From a virus: DNA of 64,000 nucleotides. The translations under genes were made by a program, and so were the position numbers. The notes under the pieces were generated by a model that saw only the letters and a program-made list of their open reading frames with translations, made no database searches and was not told the DNA's origin. Location of the stretch: positions 62,001 through 126,000 of IMG/VR virus record IMGVR_UViG_3300027976_000007; one strand, 5' to 3'. Below, one piece after another: positions 6,097-28,150 of the stretch; position 1 is the first letter of the stretch; every line of letters starts with the position of its first letter.

Positions 6097-8253
6097 TTAA
6101 CCATCACCATCAACTATAGTCCAAAAATGATCATTTCTTAAGGAGGCTCGAGCTGTTATTCCCTTACCTGATGGGGTTGATGATCCACCATGAAAGGTGA
6201 CATTCTTTAATACAGATTGAGATTCCCAACCAACCAATGTAGAATTATAATTAACAGTGGATAATGAATTACTTGTAAACATGGATTCAGCATTTTCTAG
6301 TAAAGTTACGATCCAGTTTCCTAAACTATAATTAAATATTATATTAAAAGCAAACATGAAGCTTGTATTCTCTAAGGCGGGAGTGTTCCATATTCCTATA
6401 TCTTGGTTAAATTTTAAAGCATTGGAAAACATATAAGCCATACTCTCCACTTTAATAGTATTCCATAAAGTTATGTCTTGGTTAAATTCAAGAGCAGCAA
6501 AAAACATATTACTCATTGTTATAACCTCAGCAGTATCCCATCCTCCTATATAAATGTCAAATATCGCAGCTCCAGCGAACATTCCCCCCATATTATTTAC
6601 CTTTGAGGTTATCCAGTTTGTTATTAAAGAATTAAACTTTGTAGTTATCCCAAAGGTACCTTCCATATTAACCACTTCTGAAGTATTCCAACTATTTAAA
6701 TTTTGGTTAAAGTCAACCGCACTATAAAACATGTAAGAAATGTTGAGGTTTTTTGACATATCCCAACTGTCCATAGGTTTATTATACTTTCTAGCATTTA
6801 TAAACATATAAGAGGTACTTAACAGAGCAGAAGTAATCCAGTTTTCTATAGATTGATTGTATATTAAAGCATTGTTAAACATCGAAACCATATATTTAAC
6901 TTTACGTACATCCCAATCCCCTATATATTGGTTATATTCCCAACATAGATAAAACATGGAACTCATATCTATAACATTCGAAGTATTCCAATCCCCTATA
7001 TATTGATTGAACTTTTTGCACCCCGAAAACATATAAGCCATATCAAGACAGGCTACGGTATTGAAACCATTAATACCATTAAATTCATTTAATATAAAAC
7101 AGTTTAGGAACATACTATTTAGGGAAGTAGCTTCATCTACTGAAAGGAAATCATTAGTTTCCACAGTCATGTTACTGCATCCATTAAATACATTAACCCC
7201 ATCTATTCCTATATCTAGGCAACCCCAATTTAGGATTTTTCTTACTTTTAAAGAATCAGCCACTCCCTCGAATTTCAAACCTCTTAAAATCCCTGTTATC
7301 CTTATAATATAAGTACCTTCTGTATCGTATGTATGGGTTTTAGATAGGTCTGAATGGGAAGTAACTGTACCTGTAGTGGAATCCCCCCAATTTACTATAA
7401 AATTATATGAGCTGTCTATTCCAGGAGTTGTAGGTATGGTAAAATCTAAACTTGAATTATTTACTTGTACCTCAAACATAAAGGATGAGGGATCAAATGG
7501 AGGGTTTAAGTTAGGGATATAAACTTCAAAAATTTCAGGTATATCAGGAGAATTGTTTGTTTTTTTAGAAAAAATTTCCTTAGATATTATAGGAGGTTTC
7601 CAAAATTTTAACCAATTATTGTTTAAAAAAGTAGAAAGGTTTGATTGTTTAAGCCTTCTTTCTTGGAGAAGTGTTATTTTTCTATTTACATTATATACTT
7701 CTTCCCTTTCCCCTACTATGGTCCAAGGCATGAAAAAAGTATTATATACCCCCCAATACCAATTTGGGTCTTGATCATTTAATTTATCATAGGTTTCCTT
7801 ACTAATTTCAGTATATATAGGTTGGTTTATTTTAAGGCAAAAAAATCTGTTAATAGATCCCTTCTCATAACTATCATCAGTAGGGGAAGGATAATATTGA
7901 GGGGGTAATAATTTATTTGTAGGCCTTAGGAGATTTATATTTTTTAAAAAAACATAATCTAATATTTCTTTTTGATTGTACCCCATAGTATCTAACGAAT
8001 CAAATACCGTAGGGAAATCCCCATAAGCTATTTGAGTTTGTAAGGTTTGGGGTTGGAAACTCTCCTCTACATTTGAAGGAAATGTTATAGGAAGGTTAGG
8101 AGGAGAATCAGGAGAAACCCCAGTAAAAAATTTTCCATTGGAAGTTTTATAATAAGGTCCTATATAAGGGATTTGACTTCCTTCATATACTAAAAAGTTA
8201 TTATTACTGCTAAATAAACCAGTAGTTATTTTATTTTTGGGAGTATAAGCCAT
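6097..8253 (-). CDS. BspA-like (DUF285) repeat tail adhesin with PKD-like domain
   Basis: 718 residues. Three regions are visible. Residues 1 to about 240 form a phage-type N-terminal part with a GPYYKTSNGKFFTG segment. Residues about 260-330 contain VNWGDSTTGTV and HTYDTEGTYIIRITG, a PKD-like beta sandwich. From about 340 to 690 there are about 12 repeats of the form MFxxAxxFNxxIxxW, the DUF285/BspA type of leucine-rich repeat known from surface proteins of Bacteroidota and other bacteria. It follows the baseplate hub genes with a one-base overlap, so it is probably a tail-tip or baseplate protein that binds the host surface. The N-terminal part would attach it to the virion. No enzymatic motif is seen. 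Confidence 0.75.
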   Translation of the reverse strand: MAYTPKNKITTGLFSSNNNFLVYEGSQIPYIGPYYKTSNGKFFTGVSPDSPPNLPITFPSNVEESFQPQTLQTQIAYGDFPTVFDSLDTMGYNQKEILDYVFLKNINLLRPTNKLLPPQYYPSPTDDSYEKGSINRFFCLKINQPIYTEISKETYDKLNDQDPNWYWGVYNTFFMPWTIVGEREEVYNVNRKITLLQERRLKQSNLSTFLNNNWLKFWKPPIISKEIFSKKTNNSPDIPEIFEVYIPNLNPPFDPSSFMFEVQVNNSSLDFTIPTTPGIDSSYNFIVNWGDSTTGTVTSHSDLSKTHTYDTEGTYIIRITGILRGLKFEGVADSLKVRKILNWGCLDIGIDGVNVFNGCSNMTVETNDFLSVDEATSLNSMFLNCFILNEFNGINGFNTVACLDMAYMFSGCKKFNQYIGDWNTSNVIDMSSMFYLCWEYNQYIGDWDVRKVKYMVSMFNNALIYNQSIENWITSALLSTSYMFINARKYNKPMDSWDMSKNLNISYMFYSAVDFNQNLNSWNTSEVVNMEGTFGITTKFNSLITNWITSKVNNMGGMFAGAAIFDIYIGGWDTAEVITMSNMFFAALEFNQDITLWNTIKVESMAYMFSNALKFNQDIGIWNTPALENTSFMFAFNIIFNYSLGNWIVTLLENAESMFTSNSLSTVNYNSTLVGWESQSVLKNVTFHGGSSTPSGKGITARASLRNDHFWTIVDGDG

Positions 8254-11505: not shown

Positions 11506-14037
11506 TTATAGATTAGGAAGGGATATATATCTTTCTAAGGAATTGTTTAGGTTTTTAACCTTTTGAGGAAGGAAGTTATGGATTGGGACAAATGAAAAAC
11601 CACTTACTTCTATTCTGTGAGGTAGTTCTGTTAGATCTTTGTCTTTACCACCTTCTTCATTTATACCTATTTCCCAAGTAGTATCATCAGGAATTGTATA
11701 TGTTAAGGATTTTATAAAACCCGGCTGTTCATATATATAACCTCCTACAGTTAGTTTCACTAAAGTACCTCTCATAAACCCTGAGGCTGAATAGTCTGGG
11801 GCTAAGATAGAAGCTAAATAATTTAATTTTTTATACATTGGGATAAGCTCTGGTCTAGATTGAGCCATCACCGTAAAAGATAATGAAATGTCTCTATCAA
11901 ATCCACTATAGTTGTATAAAGTATCCCCTCTACCTACATAGTTTACAGCATCCCATTTAGCCCCGTAACTATCTGAAAAACCCTTTATTAAGGCTCTGAA
12001 GTGGAGATTTATAGATTCTCCATTTACATCGTCGTTGTTTATAGTTGATATTTTAAATTTAACTAAATCACTAATAGATTCAGGGGACGGAGGGTTTGAA
12101 GATGGATAAGGTAATAATGAAGTGATTTTATCTAAAGCATCTTTAGAAGTTTGAGATGAATATTTGTATACGTTTTTAGATGTACCTTGATTATTATTCC
12201 ATAATCCGGGATCCCCTAAATTTACCCTATTTTCTATGTTTTTCCCATTACTGGGTAAGTATGAAGGAGATAAAGAAATTATTTTACTTATACCCTCTTC
12301 TACATTAATTTTTTTTCTAAAATCCTCTTTTACTCCTTGCCCTATCTCAGATTCAGAAATAATCTTAGAAGTATCTTGGATTTTTTTAGTTCCCTGCCAA
12401 TATTCTCCACCCAAAGGGATACCATTAAGGATGAGAGTATTATTTACCCCCGTTAAATTCCCTCCATTATCAGGGATGGGGTTATGTGTTTTTAGGTACT
12501 CTATATAAGAATCTAAAGATTTTTTATCTTCTGCTGATATTAAACTAGATGAAGTAGCCGTTTTAGTAACTCCTAATATTTTATTGGATATTAGTTTTTC
12601 AGTACTGAATATTGGATCTAATTTAGGATCAAACTCAGGGTTGTTTATCCCTGTTCTTTGATCTGTAAAGGGAATTATTGTTGATCCTATCCCTAATATA
12701 GATCCGGGACCTCCTGGATATTCTCTTATATTGTTATTATTTTTCTTTATCTGGGAAGTGTACCATATATTTAATAGTCTGTTTGAGAAACCCGCACCTA
12801 AAGATGATTTAATAATAGTAATATAAGAATTATTAGGATTATATTCGGATCCTAATATTTGAGGTGAATCTAATAGAAATTCATCTTTAATTATTTCTTT
12901 AGTAAAAGTTAAAGGAAGTTTTTCTAGGTCTTCTTCTTTTTGAGTTTTTATTATACTAGAATAGGAGTTTATCCCTAGACCAGGAAAAGAAGAATTATTC
13001 GTAATAGGTATTATCCCTAAGTGGTTTAAATGGCCCCCAAAAGAAGAAATACCAGATTGGGCTATAGTAGATAAGGGAGAATAAATTCCTTGATTTATAT
13101 TCCCCCCACCATATCCTATCCCTTTAGAAGCTTCCGTTTTTACTGCAGTCCTAGATAAAATATTCTCTTTTAGGGTGAAAAGAAGTCCTTTTAGTTTTTC
13201 AGTACTGAATATTGGATCTAATTTAGGATCAAACTTAGGGTTGTTTACCCCTGTTCTTTGATCTGTAAAGGGAATTATTGTTGATCCTATCCCTAATATA
13301 GATCCGGGACCTCCTGAATATTCTAATATATTGTTATTATTTTTCTCTATCTGGGAAGTGTACCATATATTTAATAGTCTGTTTGAGAAACCCGCACCTA
13401 AAGATGATTTAATAATAGTAATATAAGGATTATTAGGATTATATTCGGATCCTAATATTTGAGGTGAATCTAATAGAAATTCATCTTTAATTATTTCTTT
13501 AGTAAAAGTTAAAGGAAGTTTTTCTAGGTCTTCTTCTTTTTGAGTTTTTATTATACTAGAATAGGAGTTTATCCCTAGACCAGGAAAAGAAGAATTATTC
13601 GTAATAGGTATTATCCCTAAGTGGTTTAAATGGCCCCCAAAAGAAGAAATACCAGATTGGGCTATAGTAGATAAGGGAGAATAAATTCCTTGATTTATAT
13701 TCCCCCCACCATATCCTATCCCTTTAGAAGCTTCCGTTTTTACTGCAGTCCTAGATAAAATATTCTCTTTTAGGGTGAAAAGAAGTCCTTGTGGTGATTT
13801 TAGATCGAAAAACATTTGAGTTAATCTACTTACATCCTCTACAGATTTGAAATGTAGCTTAGGTGAAAGTAAACCCCCGCTTAATAAAACATCAGGACCT
13901 CCAGTGCTTAAAATTCCAGACCCTTCTCCTTCAGGGATAGATTTTTGAATATAAGGTTGATTGCTCGAACCTCCATATTTTTTATCTCTCCCATATTTAA
14001 GGGATTTTAGATCTGTTTTAAGTTCAATTAAAGCCAT
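11506..14037 (-). CDS. Baseplate tube-initiator-like structural protein with 200-residue tandem duplication
   Basis: 843 residues. The C-terminal 200 residues hold the conserved part: VGRGDTLYNYSGFDRDISLS, ELIPMYKKLNYLAS and LVKLTVGGYIYEQPGF, a tube-like beta-barrel seen in baseplate proteins at the base of the tail tube (gp48/gp54 role; inferred). The middle is occupied by two nearly identical 200-residue blocks encoded by a 600-bp tandem repeat, rich in Gly, Ser, Asn and Ile. Position between tape measure and LysM/hub genes supports a hub-proximal location. The single-copy form would be about 643 residues. Which T4 gene it corresponds to is not certain. Confidence 0.55.
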   Translation of the reverse strand: MALIELKTDLKSLKYGRDKKYGGSSNQPYIQKSIPEGEGSGILSTGGPDVLLSGGLLSPKLHFKSVEDVSRLTQMFFDLKSPQGLLFTLKENILSRTAVKTEASKGIGYGGGNINQGIYSPLSTIAQSGISSFGGHLNHLGIIPITNNSSFPGLGINSYSSIIKTQKEEDLEKLPLTFTKEIIKDEFLLDSPQILGSEYNPNNPYITIIKSSLGAGFSNRLLNIWYTSQIEKNNNNILEYSGGPGSILGIGSTIIPFTDQRTGVNNPKFDPKLDPIFSTEKLKGLLFTLKENILSRTAVKTEASKGIGYGGGNINQGIYSPLSTIAQSGISSFGGHLNHLGIIPITNNSSFPGLGINSYSSIIKTQKEEDLEKLPLTFTKEIIKDEFLLDSPQILGSEYNPNNSYITIIKSSLGAGFSNRLLNIWYTSQIKKNNNNIREYPGGPGSILGIGSTIIPFTDQRTGINNPEFDPKLDPIFSTEKLISNKILGVTKTATSSSLISAEDKKSLDSYIEYLKTHNPIPDNGGNLTGVNNTLILNGIPLGGEYWQGTKKIQDTSKIISESEIGQGVKEDFRKKINVEEGISKIISLSPSYLPSNGKNIENRVNLGDPGLWNNNQGTSKNVYKYSSQTSKDALDKITSLLPYPSSNPPSPESISDLVKFKISTINNDDVNGESINLHFRALIKGFSDSYGAKWDAVNYVGRGDTLYNYSGFDRDISLSFTVMAQSRPELIPMYKKLNYLASILAPDYSASGFMRGTLVKLTVGGYIYEQPGFIKSLTYTIPDDTTWEIGINEEGGKDKDLTELPHRIEVSGFSFVPIHNFLPQKVKNLNNSLERYISLPNL
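12591..13190 (-). repeat. 600-bp in-frame tandem duplication, downstream copy
   Basis: This block repeats 13191-13790 with exactly 600-base spacing. By eye there are seven mismatches, all between about 12637 and 12829; the remaining 360 bases or so are identical. The copy encodes 200 residues in frame. Confidence 0.95.
13191..13790 (-). repeat. 600-bp in-frame tandem duplication, upstream copy
   Basis: Partner of 12591-13190. The boundaries are sharp: identity stops at the base before 12591 and at the base after 13790. All seven differences from the other copy change the protein (P/S, E/K, L/R by two bases, S/P, V/I, K/E). Confidence 0.95.
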
Positions 14038-14396: not shown

Positions 14397-14406
14397 TTAT
14401 AAATAT
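14397..14406 (-). promoter_or_regulatory. ATATTTATAA motif upstream of the 74-residue protein
   Basis: Exact copy of the recurrent motif, 20 bases before the start codon and abutting the tape-measure stop codon region. Candidate late promoter element. Confidence 0.5.
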
Positions 14407-16937
14407 TAACCCATTCTAGAAGTATTTAGGGCTAAAGATTTTCCTACTTTATTTCCATCTAAATAAACATCCCCTTCCATTTTTACTGCGGCTATTAGCT
14501 CATCTAATTTAGAATATAATTTTTCTAAAGATATAGCTGGGGATGTTGTGTTTTGAGATTGTTGGGTCTTATTAGATAATAAATTTGGAGCCGCTATTAA
14601 ATCATCATTGGGGGATAGTTCAAATAAACCTCCTTCTTTAGTAGACACTCGAGTTTTGCCTTTTGAGGGGGACATTACATCACCTGCTTTATCATAAACT
14701 ATTTTTCCTATCCCTGCAGCCAATCCTATTCCTACCAAAGCCGCTACAGGGTGTGCTATAGTATAGGCTACAGCCTGGGCTACCATTTGAGCTAATTTAC
14801 TTTTCCCTAATATTAAACTTAACTTCTCAGTTATCAATTTACGTTTTTCTATAGTTTCTATTGCGAAAGACATATTTCTCGTAGCTTTCATAGTCCCATA
14901 AAGTGTGGCTAAGGTTAATACTACCCCACCAAGAGTTGCCTCCCAACCCTTAATACCTTCAAGGTTCCCTTCTATTAATCCTCCTATAATTTTGAAGGCT
15001 GAAGTTATAGGAGTCAACAACAAACCTATTCCTGCGATAGCGGGTGCTAGCATACTAACTATAGGGTTAATTATATCCATTAAAGGAATAGCCATGCTTG
15101 TAAAAACGTCTTTTAATTTTTCTGTAGATTCTCTTATTTTATCTGAATTGGAAGCTTGTTCTCTTAATCCTTCAAGTTTTTTATCTTGGAGTTCAGCTAA
15201 GGCTCCCTCTTGACCTAGAATATCTATTCGAGATTGGAGGATTTTAGCATCTTTTTCAGCTTGTTCTCCAGTAGCTCCTTTTAATTGTTCCCTGATAAAT
15301 AATGAATCTGCTAATTGATCTTTAGTCATTCCAACAGCTTTAGCTAAAGCTTCTTGTTCTATTCTATTTAAGTTTCCAAACGCAGCGGCTGTCCCTACTT
15401 GTTTCGCTATTTCAGAGGCTACACCCGCCAGATTATTATCTAAAGCATATTGTCGTGCTTTTTCCAAGTTAAGATTTCTTCCTAATATCAACTCCGCACT
15501 CATTTCAGCTTGTATGGAATCTTGGAAGTTTAATAAACTATCAGCTATGGAATTTACCTGGTCTAACTCCATACCTAAAGACTTTGCTGTAGCTACGGCC
15601 TCAGCTATAAGCCCTGGATTTTGACCTAATGAAAGAGTGATTGAAGATGAAACTTTTCCTATCCCTTTTAATAATTCTTTTTCGTTTAATAATACTCCGT
15701 TTTTAAGGGAAGCGATTTTAGCTTGAGCCATAAACTCCTTAGTAATATCGTTTACAGGTTTTCCAGAACTTATTGAGATTTTACCTAAAGCAATCATTTC
15801 TTCGTTAGTGAATCCTGCCATGTCTTTTAAGGCACTCATCTGTACTAACATATCTTTATTTAACATGACTCCGGTTCCTAAGGAATCATTCATTTTTGTT
15901 AACATTTCAGAAAGGTCTTTGGATGATACAAAGTTTTCTCCTGAAGCTTTTGCCGCCTCGTTAAGTTCTTTATGGAATCCAGTAGCTTCTTTATATGAAA
16001 CCCCCATCCCTTTAGCCATACTTCCTACGACTTGATCTACTTCCATTATAGAAGAAACCAATAACCCTAATAAGGCTATGGGTCCTAAGGCGGTCATTAA
16101 ATTAGCTCCAAGACTCTTAACTCCTGCCATAAGAGGGGATAGAGATTTAACATCTGGGATGTTTATTATAGATTCCTCCCCCGCCTGGGACGCAGCCTCT
16201 TGAGAGGTCATTCCTTCTTTTCTTTTTTCTTTATATAATCTCTTTTTTTCCTCCCACCTCCTCTCTAATGTTATTTTTTTAGCGGTTTCAGAACTAATGC
16301 CTTTAATATCTCCAAATGCTTCTTTATTATATATAGCTTGTTGTCTAGAAGCTTCAGCCGCTTCTCCAAAGGAGGTGGAATATGATCTTAATCCAGGGAT
16401 GCTTTTAGCTATATCATTAAAAGCCGCAAAGGAACCTACCCCAAAACTTCTTTGAATTTCTTCAGAATGGCTTTCTATGATAGCCAATTCGTTTCTAGTA
16501 CGAACTATATTAGCTAATTGCTCCTCAATATTTTGAGCTTGAATGTCTGACCCTTCTACCCCAGACATAAGAAATTTAGCCTGAAGTTGATCCAGAAGTT
16601 GGGCTTGTTTAGTTAAGGATAATCTTTTTTCTGTTAATTGGTTTTTTGTAGATTCTAATCCTAAACTATCTTTTTGGATTGAATATACAGATTCAATTTC
16701 TTTAGTTATTTTGGAAGTAAGGGAAGATAAGGATCTTTGTTCGGTATTTAACCTTTTCGCAAATTTTGATTGGCTTTTAATAGAATTATTAATATCCTGT
16801 TGGGTATCTAAAACTGTTGAAGAAATACCAGCCCTTTCTCTTAATATCTCAAGTATAGCTTTACCTATCTCATGTTCCTCCGTTAAGGAATTGTTAAGAT
16901 TTTCTTGATCATTTATATTCTCCGGGGTTACTGCCAT
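14406..16937 (-). CDS. Tail tape measure protein
   Basis: 843 residues. The N-terminal third is charged and coiled-coil-like (long runs of E, K, Q and L), followed by hydrophobic segments typical of tape measures: ALGPIALLGLLVSSI near 285, MLAPAIAGIGLLLTPI near 635, and AALVGIGLAAGIGKIVY near 740. Between these lie long Ala/Lys/Leu helical stretches. It follows the sheath, tube and chaperone genes, the canonical place for the protein that sets tail length. By the usual rule of about 0.15 nm per residue the tail would be about 125 nm long; this is an estimate. No peptidase domain is visible in it. Confidence 0.85.
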   Translation of the reverse strand: MAVTPENINDQENLNNSLTEEHEIGKAILEILRERAGISSTVLDTQQDINNSIKSQSKFAKRLNTEQRSLSSLTSKITKEIESVYSIQKDSLGLESTKNQLTEKRLSLTKQAQLLDQLQAKFLMSGVEGSDIQAQNIEEQLANIVRTRNELAIIESHSEEIQRSFGVGSFAAFNDIAKSIPGLRSYSTSFGEAAEASRQQAIYNKEAFGDIKGISSETAKKITLERRWEEKKRLYKEKRKEGMTSQEAASQAGEESIINIPDVKSLSPLMAGVKSLGANLMTALGPIALLGLLVSSIMEVDQVVGSMAKGMGVSYKEATGFHKELNEAAKASGENFVSSKDLSEMLTKMNDSLGTGVMLNKDMLVQMSALKDMAGFTNEEMIALGKISISSGKPVNDITKEFMAQAKIASLKNGVLLNEKELLKGIGKVSSSITLSLGQNPGLIAEAVATAKSLGMELDQVNSIADSLLNFQDSIQAEMSAELILGRNLNLEKARQYALDNNLAGVASEIAKQVGTAAAFGNLNRIEQEALAKAVGMTKDQLADSLFIREQLKGATGEQAEKDAKILQSRIDILGQEGALAELQDKKLEGLREQASNSDKIRESTEKLKDVFTSMAIPLMDIINPIVSMLAPAIAGIGLLLTPITSAFKIIGGLIEGNLEGIKGWEATLGGVVLTLATLYGTMKATRNMSFAIETIEKRKLITEKLSLILGKSKLAQMVAQAVAYTIAHPVAALVGIGLAAGIGKIVYDKAGDVMSPSKGKTRVSTKEGGLFELSPNDDLIAAPNLLSNKTQQSQNTTSPAISLEKLYSKLDELIAAVKMEGDVYLDGNKVGKSLALNTSRMG

Positions 16938-16955
16938 TTATTTTGTTTATACATA

Positions 16956-17198
16956 TTAAGGTTTAGGGTTTTTTATAAAATTCCCGTCACTATCAAAAAA
17001 ATCTTTACCTTTAGGTTTTGATGATGGGATATCTTCTTTATTAAAATCCTGGATTTGTTTTAAAGTATAATTCCTTAACCAAATAGGCATATTATATAGG
17101 ATTTCATAAGAGAAACCTCCCCTACCATGAAATGTTATTTCATGAAGGGTTTTAAAAAGGTTTTGCCTAAAAATTTGGAGATTTTCAATAGTCAGGCC
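16956..17198 (-). CDS. Probable frameshift extension of the tail assembly chaperone (gp51-like)
   Basis: This reading frame has no usable ATG near its beginning, but continues the chaperone in another frame. After a run of seven T on the coding strand (17199-17205) a +1 (or -2) shift gives 80 more residues: GLTIENLQIFRQNLFKTLHE, then ITFHGRGGFSYEILYNMPIW, then LRNYTLKQIQDF, ending in NPKP and TAA. The pattern GGF..E....MP.WLR is like the downstream half of tail assembly chaperones, made as a fusion in many phages. The open frame starts after a TAG at 17214-17216. The tape measure follows 18 bases after its stop. Independent initiation at a rare start codon is the alternative. Confidence 0.6.
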   Translation of the reverse strand, partial: GLTIENLQIFRQNLFKTLHEITFHGRGGFSYEILYNMPIWLRNYTLKQIQDFNKEDIPSSKPKGKDFFDSDGNFIKNPKP

Positions 17199-17913
17199 AA
17201 AAAAAGTTGAGCCCTATAGGGAGACTCACCTCCTTTCCTTTATTAGATATATATGTTAAATTGACATCGGGTTGAGTTTGTTTTATATGTCCTCTAAAGG
17301 CTCTAGAATCCATAGCTAAAAACCTATTATCTACAAATTCCCTTATATGTTTAGGTTCAGAATTTTCTTCTACTGAAAGGATCATATGTTTAAGTCTAGT
17401 GGTCAATTCTGGGGATTCGTTTGGATTTAATTTCTTTAATCCCTCTAATTCTCTAGTTATAGCCTTTTCATCCTTCCCAGTTAATAATTTATATTTAATT
17501 TCTACACCTGTTGAAGGTAAGGTGAAAGAAAAAGAATTTAAACCTAAGGTTATTGAAGTTTCATCAAACTCTTTATTTTCCAATGTAGTCAAATCTATAA
17601 CTTGGGATTCTCCTCCTACATCAAATTCATAATTTTTACCATATCCTAAAACTCTAGATGCTATAAATAGAGCGTTTTTATCTCCTACTATAAGATCATC
17701 TACTTTAATTTTTTTATTTACAATTAAAGATTCCAAAAGCTTATCTAAAACTATTCCTTTCTCTATATAAGATTGGTTAGATAGGATATCTTCCTCTTTA
17801 GCTGTCATATATTTTATTTCAATTTTCCCTGATCTTAAAGGGTTATTTTCTTCATATATTAATCCTTTAGAAGGAAGTTCTATTTCTTCTGTAGGGAACA
17901 TTTTTTCAACCAT
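17185..17913 (-). CDS. Tail assembly chaperone / gp26-like baseplate protein
   Basis: 242 residues. The protein resembles T4-type gp26: EIELPSKGLIYEE, then GKIEIKYMTAKEEDILSNQS, then KGIVLDKLLESLI. It sits between the tube and the tape measure, the place of the chaperone that coats the tape measure before tube polymerisation. The last codons contain TTT TTT TGG within seven T, followed by a nearby TGA, where a shift would add the 80-residue extension described separately. Whether it acts as a chaperone or a hub component is not decided by sequence. An exact ATATTTATAA motif lies 16 bases before the ATG, and a terminator-like hairpin lies between it and the tube gene. Confidence 0.7.
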   Translation of the reverse strand: MVEKMFPTEEIELPSKGLIYEENNPLRSGKIEIKYMTAKEEDILSNQSYIEKGIVLDKLLESLIVNKKIKVDDLIVGDKNALFIASRVLGYGKNYEFDVGGESQVIDLTTLENKEFDETSITLGLNSFSFTLPSTGVEIKYKLLTGKDEKAITRELEGLKKLNPNESPELTTRLKHMILSVEENSEPKHIREFVDNRFLAMDSRAFRGHIKQTQPDVNLTYISNKGKEVSLPIGLNFFWPDY

Positions 17914-17997: not shown

Positions 17998-18486
17998 TTA
18001 GAAATTCAAGACACAATAATCCATCCCAATTGATAATTTTATGTTAAGGGCTTCATTTTCAGTATCCCAATTAAAATCTCCAAAATTTGCAGATTTAATA
18101 AAGGCTCCTTTTATGATCCATTCCGACACTGTATCATTGACAGGTCCTAGTACATTTATAGTTAAATCTTTTTTATAAAAATCGGAATAACCATCTCTGC
18201 CCGTAACAGATTCGTGGTGCAATCTTACCCACTCCATAACGGATTGGGCTCCTGATGGGGTGATTGGATCAAATAACTCCAAATCAAGATCATTCCATTT
18301 TAATTTACCTTTTACTTTACGGTAAATATTAATATGGTTAAGAGTTATTTCATCTTGGGAAAAACCTAACCCACTGACCCCTTTGATGAGATATGAAGGA
18401 ACCCCGTCTACATACATTACGAATCTATTTGCTTGTTTAGGTTCCCATGCGGTGAAGAAGCTTTCGTTTGGATTTAATACTGCCAT
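17998..18486 (-). CDS. gp19: Tail tube protein (T4 gp19-like)
   Basis: 162 residues, matching T4 gp19 (163). Characteristic segments are NRFVMYVDGVPSYLIKGVSG near 21-40, the INIYRKVKGKLKWNDLDLEL block, and WIIKGAFIKSANFGDFNWDT near the C terminus. It polymerises into the inner tail tube. It lies directly after the sheath gene, 41 bases downstream, with its own ATATTTATAA motif, and is followed by a terminator-like hairpin. The protein is small, beta-rich and without cysteine except near the C terminus (DYCVLNF). Confidence 0.92.
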   Translation of the reverse strand: MAVLNPNESFFTAWEPKQANRFVMYVDGVPSYLIKGVSGLGFSQDEITLNHINIYRKVKGKLKWNDLDLELFDPITPSGAQSVMEWVRLHHESVTGRDGYSDFYKKDLTINVLGPVNDTVSEWIIKGAFIKSANFGDFNWDTENEALNIKLSIGMDYCVLNF

Positions 18487-26077: not shown

Positions 26078-26782
26078 TTATTTTGATGGAGTTTGTTTTT
26101 CTCTTTCATCCTCATAAGCTTTAATTATATCATCTACTATAGGATCCCTATGATTATGAATTAAAGTTATGCTTTCCATATTCTTTATCTTTTTGGCGGC
26201 GGAATATATGAATCTAAATCCTGAGTCTCTTCTTGATTTTAAATCAACTTGATGGTCATCTCCGCATATCATCATTTTTGATCTAATTCCTATTCTAGTA
26301 GTAATCATTTCCATCTGTTCATGAGTAACATTTTGGGCTTCATCTACTACTATACATGAATCTAGAAAAGTGCGACCACGCATGAATGATAGAGGAACTA
26401 TTTCTACTATCCCATCAGCTATTAGTTTTTCTATTTTAGTTTTATCATATAGTAAAAACATATTTTGGTATATAGGTTGGATCCAGGGATCCATCTTTTC
26501 TCTTAGATCCCCAGGCAAGAAACCTATTTCCTCCTTTGATACTGTAGGTCGGGTGATGATTATTTTACTATATTCTTTTCTAAACAACCCATCTAATGCT
26601 ACTTGACATGCTAATAAGGTTTTACCTGATCCAGCTTTACCTGCTAATATAGTTAAAGTGTTGTTTAAGATTTTATCTTTAGCTTCCTTCTGTTCTTGGT
26701 TTAAGTTGATTTTAAATTTTATAGGGTTCTTAATAATTTTTTTGCTTTTAAAAATTTCGTCATCATGATGATTAGAGGCCAT
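26078..26782 (-). CDS. phoH: PhoH-like P-loop ATPase
   Basis: 234 residues. Walker A GKAGSGKT at 48-55, IIITRPTV at 74-81, GFLPGDLREKM near 87-97, Walker B IVVDEAQN at 144-151 and the MICGDDHQVDL sensor segment are all PhoH-family hallmarks. PhoH ATPases are common in phages; a link to RNA metabolism or phosphate stress has been proposed but the phage role is unresolved. It lies between the homing endonuclease and the neck gene, a break in the structural operon. I see no close ATATTTATAA motif before it, so it is probably read through from upstream. Confidence 0.9.
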   Translation of the reverse strand: MASNHHDDEIFKSKKIIKNPIKFKINLNQEQKEAKDKILNNTLTILAGKAGSGKTLLACQVALDGLFRKEYSKIIITRPTVSKEEIGFLPGDLREKMDPWIQPIYQNMFLLYDKTKIEKLIADGIVEIVPLSFMRGRTFLDSCIVVDEAQNVTHEQMEMITTRIGIRSKMMICGDDHQVDLKSRRDSGFRFIYSAAKKIKNMESITLIHNHRDPIVDDIIKAYEDEREKQTPSK

Positions 26783-26800: not shown

Positions 26801-28150
26801 TCAATTATACATATTAGAATTCCATTCAAATTTTAGATTTCCCGTATTCCATACTCGGTAATATCCTCTATTTAACATAATCTCATATTCTGTAAGTTTG
26901 GGGTCTTCTCCTTGTTTTACTAATAGATCTTTTCTGAAGTTAAATCTATTATATTTTATTTTTGATTTAAACCAATGATATCCTGGAGTAGTAGGTTTTA
27001 AGGGGTTCATATTCAATTTATTGTATAAACCCCCATCACTCCAATCTCTGTTGGCATAAGATATTACTTTTATAGGGGAATGGAGGGTTATAAATTTCTT
27101 AAATAGTTTAGATGCTCCCCCTATAACATTATAGTATTTTTTATTACAAAATCTTAACAATTCAAAATGACCTTCGATATTATTTTGTTTTAAATTTTTT
27201 CGTAATTTACTAAAGGTCATTACTGAAACTAATCCATCATTATAGAATAACCCTAAACTGTATTTACATATAGCATTTCCCTGTAGATGGTTTTCTTTTA
27301 AGAAAGAAGTACTTTCTTTATTTGAAATGTTTTTTACAACACATTTTCTAGCATAAATTGAATTTGGAGTAATACTCAATTGGTTTTTGAGTATTGATTT
27401 GATAATATCGCTTTTTTGGATCCAATCACTATCCCAAATATGTATTAATTTTACCCCTAAAGAGTTACATTCTTTTGTTTTTTTTAGATGGTATGATTTG
27501 TCTTTTTTAAAGAGATCGGAATGATAATAAGTTCCATTAAATTCTATAGCTAATTTTAATTCAGGTAGATATATATCTATTTCTTTCCCATTTAATAATT
27601 CTGTATCATTATTAATTATTTTATCTTTATATTCGTTTTTAATGAAAGAAAGTAGTTCTTTTTCTAGTTTGGATACTCCCTTAAATAATCCTTTTTCTTT
27701 TTCTATTCTCTTTATAGCACTTTTTCTCATTTGGTTTTTTGTTTCTATTGAGTGGGTGTTATATCCAGGTTTTACCCAATCCCAATGACCTTTAATATAG
27801 GAAGAAAACCAGTTCTTTTTGTCATATTTAATAAAAGTAGTTTCACCTTTACATCCACATTTACATAATGGAGGTTTATTATTAAATTTATGCTTTAGTA
27901 TATAATTTTTGAAGGATATGTTATGTTCTTTAGAAATATGGAACATTAAATTCCTATAATCTTTTACATTAACACCACATTCCATACATTCCATTTTATA
28001 GGTTTTAGAGTCTTTTATTTCTTTGATTTTTTTGATTCTAAATTCCCCGTACTTCGAAAGGTATTCCTCCGTCTTTATTGAATGGTTCCATCTCAGATGC
28101 ATCGCTAAGGACCTAGCGGTTATTTCTTCATTACATATATTACATTTCAT
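26801..28150 (-). CDS. Free-standing homing endonuclease, EDxHD/Vsr-like, with zinc fingers
   Basis: 449 residues. The N terminus has two C2H2-type zinc motifs (CNIC...H17/H22-type spacing and CMEC...HISKEH) and a CKCGCKG element for DNA binding. A Vsr/EDxHD-type nuclease core follows: EIDIYLPELKLAIEFNGTYY, then H in YYHSD, then LIHIWDSDW. The C-terminal half is a second conserved domain (VMTFSKLRKN, LLRFCNKK, SYANRDWSDGGLY) typical of phage homing enzymes. It lies alone between the capsid gene and phoH, just after the capsid terminator, and is therefore most likely a mobile gene inserted into the late region. Confidence 0.82.
   Translation of the reverse strand: MKCNICNEEITARSLAMHLRWNHSIKTEEYLSKYGEFRIKKIKEIKDSKTYKMECMECGVNVKDYRNLMFHISKEHNISFKNYILKHKFNNKPPLCKCGCKGETTFIKYDKKNWFSSYIKGHWDWVKPGYNTHSIETKNQMRKSAIKRIEKEKGLFKGVSKLEKELLSFIKNEYKDKIINNDTELLNGKEIDIYLPELKLAIEFNGTYYHSDLFKKDKSYHLKKTKECNSLGVKLIHIWDSDWIQKSDIIKSILKNQLSITPNSIYARKCVVKNISNKESTSFLKENHLQGNAICKYSLGLFYNDGLVSVMTFSKLRKNLKQNNIEGHFELLRFCNKKYYNVIGGASKLFKKFITLHSPIKVISYANRDWSDGGLYNKLNMNPLKPTTPGYHWFKSKIKYNRFNFRKDLLVKQGEDPKLTEYEIMLNRGYYRVWNTGNLKFEWNSNMYN

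Follow-up and report, generated by a model that had tools for sequence, protein, structure and literature searches.

Probable +1 ribosomal frameshifting in a gp26/gp51-family tail assembly chaperone gene of T4-like phages, with a conserved Shine-Dalgarno sequence upstream of the slip site

The tail assembly chaperone gene of the gp26/gp51 family (PF12322) in a large group of T4-like phages is very probably expressed by +1 programmed ribosomal frameshifting. Comparison with relatives indicates that the gpG/gpGT chaperone scheme is at work within this family, in the +1 direction. The novelty would lie in that direction and in the signal upstream of the slip site, where a Shine-Dalgarno sequence inside the gene, established by its conservation, is followed by a probable hairpin. 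An earlier note, drawn from the letters of one such gene, had proposed a '+1 or -2' shift. Its reading of a frameshift is supported; it missed the Shine-Dalgarno sequence and probable hairpin (17236-17208). Of its two directions, the comparison strongly supports +1 and disfavours -2.

Gene layout

The DNA analysed, here called the window, is a 64 kb stretch of a 142-kb virus record that may be incomplete. The chaperone gene (Table 1) adjoins a gp19-like tail tube gene (17998-18486), and an 843-aa ORF stands in the tape-measure position (14406-16937); the order tube, chaperone, tape measure is likewise annotated in immuto and LIS04. At its 3′ end ORF1 reads CTC AAC TTT TTT TGG CCT GAC TAT TGA, finishing at 17185 on the minus strand, with seven consecutive T at 17205-17199 (minus strand). 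The earlier note had the TGA after TTT TTT TGG and the run of seven T right, leaving the strand, which is minus, unstated. Its statement that a -1 shift meets TGA almost at once also holds in the window, where this frame reads TTG GCC TGA, a stop after three codons. From 17213 the +1 frame stays open until a TAA at 16958-16956 (minus strand). Counted from GGC (17198) it has the 80 codons, with no usable ATG of its own, that had been described: there is no ATG, GTG or TTG near its start, and the sole early ATG lies inside a conserved YNMP motif. No tRNA gene was found in the 64 kb window.

Table 1. Coordinates of the chaperone gene and its candidate recoding elements in the window
Feature	Position	Strand	Basis or remark
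ORF1, short chaperone, T4 gp26 family, 242 aa	17185..17913	-	PF12322, phrog_150, position
Internal Shine-Dalgarno sequence AAAGGAGGTGA	17226..17236	-	Conserved position in relatives; 11-mer unique in window
Probable hairpin TGAGTCT-CCCTATA-GGGCTCA	17208..17228	-	Fills the spacer between Shine-Dalgarno sequence and slip site; TGA shared with the Shine-Dalgarno tail
Putative slip site TTT TTT TGG	17197..17205	-	P-site Phe codon would re-pair one base forward, then GGC (Gly)
Zero-frame TGA stop of short product	17185..17187	-	
ORF2, +1 frame, 80-codon C-terminal extension (T-type domain)	16956..17198	-	GGC to TAA
Whole gene as putatively recoded, long product of 318 aa	16956..17913	-	

Three further ORFs on the minus strand of the window deserve mention in their own right. 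Within a tail ORF of 843 aa (11506-14037), about 600 nt are duplicated in tandem, and the 300-nt stretches compared, 12591-12890 and 13191-13490, are 98% identical; this is either a recent duplication or an assembly artefact. Within the tail gene region, an ORF at 6097-8253 carries three DUF285 stretches (BspA/Mycoplasma-type repeat, E 9.5e-76) and may encode a host-binding protein. Beside a PhoH-like ORF (26078-26782), an endonuclease-like ORF at 26801-28150 has weak MTES_1575/PvuRts1I-type matches and looks like a free-standing homing-type endonuclease.

Coding capacity of the second frame

Searches with ORF1 yielded 16, then 80 IMG/VR loci, along with Flavobacterium phage immuto, Microcystis phage Mel-JY01 and an uncultured jumbo phage; removing sequences more than 85% identical left 74. 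The nearest cultured relative, immuto, infects Flavobacterium and has a related element, TTT CTT TGG with a Shine-Dalgarno-like sequence and a hairpin. The relatives form a large group of T4-like phages, probably with Bacteroidota hosts.

Comparison demonstrates the frame relation: ORF2 stands in the same +1 relation to ORF1 in 98 of 98 relatives, down to 37% identity. Past the ORF1 stop, the codon-usage log-likelihood over 70 non-redundant sequences is +1929 for ORF2, whereas the two other frames score -388 and -1173. These other frames contain 345 and 980 stops in the same 70 sequences, and the median dN/dS of ORF2 there is 0.49. Its conserved core reads GGY..vYnMPiWLR. Between the last upstream +1 stop and the GG motif, 19 of 73 non-redundant sequences, that of the window included, contain no ATG, GTG or TTG, and only 5/73 offer an ATG in the interval from slip to GG motif. 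A +1-frame stop lies at most 24 nt upstream of the slip in 34/70 sequences, and the -1 frame closes after three codons in 69/70. By this comparison the openness of ORF2 in the +1 frame is more than chance, the same relation recurring in every relative found.

The putative slip site

The constraint on the slip codons likewise emerges from the comparison. All 74 non-redundant sequences have TTT as the first slip codon. The second is TTT in 64, CTT in nine and CTA in one, and never TTA, though TTA makes up 60% of the Leu codons in the gene. The third codon always begins with T (TGG 69, TAC 3, TTC 2; n = 74). Counting the window and its 98 relatives, YTT T is present in all but one of 99 sequences, so that a slip-prone sequence is conserved in the overlap, as in known chaperone pairs. 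Comparing the heptamer among relatives, a check that the earlier note had suggested, shows that the frame relation at the slip is kept and that the run of seven T varies, with TTTCTTT in about 10%. FF.P is kept in the zero-frame protein, and part of the conservation of the slip site is therefore at the protein level.

Codon choice after the slip shows dual coding. CCT follows in 73/74 sequences, against a usage of 38% for Pro elsewhere in the gene. An Asp codon comes next in 68/74 and is GAC in all 68, against 21% GAC and 79% GAT elsewhere in the gene. Such a bias is expected if CTG AC. is read too: CCT GAC serves both frames (Pro-Asp and Leu-Thr), so that the +1 frame is constrained from there on. 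Across ORF1, codon bias peaks in columns clustered in the last 14 codons and at the slip.

Nearly all sequences carry C or G immediately before TTT, although AAT outnumbers AAC three to one in this gene; the C or G removes the -1 heptamer T TTT TTT. No canonical -1 heptamer (X XXY YYZ) leading into an open frame occurs at the slip site. The A-site codon TGG is a sense codon, and the stop or rare codon usual for +1 slips is absent here.

Upstream Shine-Dalgarno sequence and probable hairpin

For each 9-mer along the gene, the energy of pairing to the 16S tail was compared with that of synonymous codon draws. A single sharp peak of Shine-Dalgarno pairing appeared, its end some 22 nt before the slip codon (z -14); elsewhere in the whole gene nothing similar was seen (z sd 1.3, minimum -5.3). 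The signal persists at stricter redundancy cut-offs, and the 11-mer AAAGGAGGTGA occurs once in the 64 kb. A Shine-Dalgarno sequence that is strong by the cut-off is absent from this region in 18/70 sequences, and both it and the hairpin are absent by the cut-offs in 8/70. The linear distance to the slip site is some 22-23 nt, much longer than the ~3 nt of prfB unless the hairpin forms. A nearer Shine-Dalgarno sequence, formed from the GGG of codon -3, was rejected, since pairing energy shows no excess there.

Among the window genes of at least 150 aa, none of 45 starts has a Shine-Dalgarno sequence, which is below background. This is initiation of the Bacteroidota type (Flavobacterium type), and the internal Shine-Dalgarno sequence can therefore hardly be an initiation signal. 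Bacteroidota ribosomes occlude their anti-Shine-Dalgarno sequence (PMC8710568). Nonetheless, the prfB gene of F. johnsoniae uses AGGAGGUAUCUUUGAC, a perfect Shine-Dalgarno sequence 3 nt before CUU UGA that marks its +1 site despite this occlusion (PMC8710568).

A hairpin probably occupies the spacer between Shine-Dalgarno sequence and slip site. Its energy in the window is -7.2 kcal/mol. Other sequences have arms such as ATCCC/GGGAT, AGTCC/GGACT, GGCC/GGCC and GCCC/GGGC, and further arms elsewhere are GCTGTCGT/ATGACAGC and CGCATCC/GGATGCG; the hairpin occurs in three registers, with loops of 3, 4 and 5. Fold-scan z-scores are inflated in low-energy windows, and effect sizes were therefore used: nowhere else in the gene does fold energy exceed that of synonymous draws by as much as here (-2.25 kcal/mol; rest: mean -0.09, sd 0.24). 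Fold energy also exceeds that under within-column codon permutation (z -5.1, 0/500), a signal that fades below 65% identity (n = 26 most diverse sequences). A single hairpin in fixed register was rejected, given that pair counting in two of the three registers gave no covariation beyond shuffles and RNAalifold gave no consensus pair for the region. As naked RNA, the 56-nt segment folds unremarkably (z -0.7), and the Shine-Dalgarno sequence is able to pair with the T run there, a pairing no longer open to it when a ribosome sits at the slip site.

Proposed mechanism

Most ribosomes would read TTT TTT TGG CCT GAC TAT TGA and make the short gp26-like protein. We infer that a minority, with the P site occupied by tRNA-Phe (by tRNA-Leu where the variant is CTT), would slip +1, from YUU U to UUU. 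These ribosomes would read on as GGC CTG AC. and make a long protein with a gp51-type C-terminal domain; the fusion junction would read FFG, spanning ...GLNFFGLTIENLQIFR. The hairpin could shorten the 23-nt spacer to two nt before the first slip codon and five before the second, close to the spacing in prfB, and the Shine-Dalgarno duplex together with the hairpin may push the ribosome forward at YUU U, much as in prfB. Most likely, then, the Shine-Dalgarno sequence with its hairpin promotes the forward slip in the prfB manner.

On 70S ribosomes, an upstream duplex beside the E site raises +1 shifting and dampens -1 shifting (PMC6321510), and in T4 genes 38 and 25 a hairpin brings a Shine-Dalgarno sequence 22 or 27 nt away to a working distance (PMC3014915). 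It is tempting, if somewhat less than an even bet, to see here a new design of +1 element: a 'split' prfB signal, in which a spacer hairpin brings a perfect Shine-Dalgarno sequence beside the slip codon. Phages with this element would infect hosts that hardly use Shine-Dalgarno sequences for initiation, and pairing of mRNA with rRNA would serve elongation only.

Alternative explanations

A -2 ribosomal frameshift at the T run would enter the same ORF2 with one residue more (FFFG). The final frame is identical, TTTTTTT allows full re-pairing two bases back, and a -2 tail chaperone frameshift is known in Mu-like phages, which speaks for this reading. However, 3/3 standard pairs survive a +1 slip of the P-site tRNA in 99/99 sequences and a -2 slip in 86/99; the remaining 13, with TTT CTT T or TTT CTA T, have no codon whose 3/3 pairing is retained two bases back. 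Because these relatives keep the frame and lose full -2 re-pairing, a -2 shift is very improbable, and the conserved C or G before TTT and the upstream Shine-Dalgarno sequence and hairpin also favour forward movement (PMC6321510). The comparison thus favours +1 over -2, and also over slippage by RNA polymerase. In the latter case the polymerase would add or drop a base in the T run, and the edited mRNA would give the fusion. The window does have seven consecutive T, but such a run is short for bacterial transcriptional slippage, and in 9/70 sequences that keep the ORF2 frame the longest T run at the site is only three, which makes this explanation extremely improbable.

ORF2 might instead be initiated independently and yield a free T-type protein, starting either at the conserved CTG, where Shine-Dalgarno sequence and hairpin would form a split ribosome binding site, or within YNMP at its inner ATG. 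T4 genes 25 and 38 do use a hairpin-bridged Shine-Dalgarno sequence (PMC3014915), and an ORF from the inner ATG is annotated in immuto and SP-15. The conserved CTG, however, is already dictated by the two-frame use of CCT GAC, and starting at the inner ATG would remove the conserved FFGLT..R..LF.QIH half. No ATG, GTG or TTG is conserved, the window phage leaves Shine-Dalgarno sequences unused at its gene starts (0/45), and keeping the slip-compatible YTT T would be needless, so that independent initiation is very improbable. The coding signature, the conservation over 98 relatives and the dual-frame constraint at the junction leave next to no probability for an ORF2 without a meaningful product, open in the +1 frame by chance or as a remnant.

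The gp26/gp51 family and other recoded chaperones

The assignment of the putatively +1-frameshifted gene to the gp26/gp51 family begins with ORF1, which scores 27.2 bits against PF12322 (T4_baseplate; curated cut-off 24.5) and 2.8e-10 against phrog_150 (baseplate hub). T4 gp51 matches PF12322 over residues 1-201 and has ~48 further residues as a C-terminal extension. ORF2 aligns in register with the gp51-like domain of cyanophages and KVP40 (hhalign 67%), and the cyanophage domain aligns with T4 gp51 211-244 (35%). This supports the link to the T4 pair that the earlier note had drawn. Compared directly with T4 gp51, ORF2 gives a weak match that is not significant (E 0.41), and phrog_634 is matched weakly by 4/20 ORF2 members (best E 0.012). 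Structures were predicted separately for ORF1 (pLDDT 90.5) and ORF2 (68). BFVD structure matches of ORF1 are gp26-type proteins; in the PDB structure comparison of ORF1, HK97 chaperone 2OB9 ranks fourth (E 0.81, TM 0.47 on target), a weak hint, and a PDB sequence search gave no matches. A second PF12322 gene was not found in the 142-kb record, itself perhaps incomplete, so no separate gp51 is at hand. ORF1 and ORF2 lie between tube and tape measure, the second overlapping the first in another frame without its own start, as expected of a chaperone pair. From position, family and gene logic, we infer that the products are short and long tail assembly chaperones.

An overlapping pair between tube and tape measure is likewise present in lambda and most long-tailed phages (gpG/gpGT; Xu, Hendrix and Duda 2004; PMC5009743), with a short product and, from a frameshift close to where the first ORF ends, a rarer long one. 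That shift is mostly -1 on XXXYYYZ in another sequence family, whereas here it would be +1 on YTT T in PF12322. The T4 gp26/gp51 pair and poly-T -1 chaperone signals in T4-like phages are prior art, as far as Vladimirov, Gautam and Davidson 2022 is cited in PMC10274946 (PRFect) and PMC12846349 (Adele). As those papers cite it, the system shares family and place with the present gene, and its short form is gp26, its long form a gp26-like domain with an extension. T4 has two separate genes, and -1 T_TTT_TTC signals are found in cyanophages, KVP40, Atu_ph07 and PA5oct; the present case would be +1. Cyanophage gp26 homologs have NNT TTT TTC, a canonical -1 heptamer, at the matching position in 81/81, with the -1 frame open into a gp51-like ORF in this set. 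The gp26 genes of KVP40, S-SM2, Atu_ph07 and PA5oct have T_TTT_TTC at the corresponding point, again with an open -1 frame.

Annotations of cyanophages, KVP40, Atu_ph07 and PA5oct either give the second ORF as a gene of its own with an ATG start or omit it. In SP-15, LIS04 and Streptococcus phage GXN1 it is also in +1, with other junctions (TTT TTT CAC GCC CGA, TTT TTT AGT ACC CGA and TTC TTT CGT CCC CGA, respectively) and probably other slip codons. An uncultured jumbo phage, LR756511, has a gp26 homolog followed by a T-type ORF in the -1 frame, with a longer zero-frame tail.

The RF2 gene prfB (AGGGGG UAU CUU UGA C; PMC8710568, PMC12421855) shares with the phage element the P-site slip on YUU U and the internal Shine-Dalgarno sequence. 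In prfB the latter lies 3 nt from the slip codon and a stop occupies the A site, whereas the phage gene has ~23 nt with a probable hairpin and UGG, its relatives having TGG, TAC or TTC in that place. The +1-stimulating hairpins next to the E site (PMC6321510) are likewise just 5′ of the slip and act in the same direction; they are reporter constructs, whereas the phage element is natural and adds a Shine-Dalgarno sequence. T4 genes 38 and 25 have split ribosome binding sites, that of gene 25 at the end of gene 26, with the same order of Shine-Dalgarno sequence and hairpin and the same spacer length, which the hairpin cuts from 22 to 5 and from 27 to 11 nt before AUG (PMC3014915). They serve initiation at AUG, whereas a slip site and no start codon follows in the phage element. 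The chaperone of the haloarchaeal myovirus HSTV-2 (PMC5009743) is also a myovirus tail chaperone and likely uses +1, in a host from another domain of life.

Meaning for the chaperone family and its hosts

The chaperone gene of the gp26 family appears to have been solved in three ways, all centred on the same Phe-Phe codons: as two genes in T4, by a -1 shift in cyanophages and KVP40, and probably by a +1 shift here. The base before TTT TTT (T as against C or G) separates the -1 from the +1 class, and a switch of direction should therefore be testable by single-base changes. Annotations of immuto, SP-15, KVP40 and cyanophages would then hold a truncated or separate ORF in place of the fusion. 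More broadly, these genes offer a natural case of selection maintaining an internal Shine-Dalgarno sequence in phages whose gene starts avoid it, and this would make the use of the anti-Shine-Dalgarno sequence by elongating Bacteroidota ribosomes directly testable.
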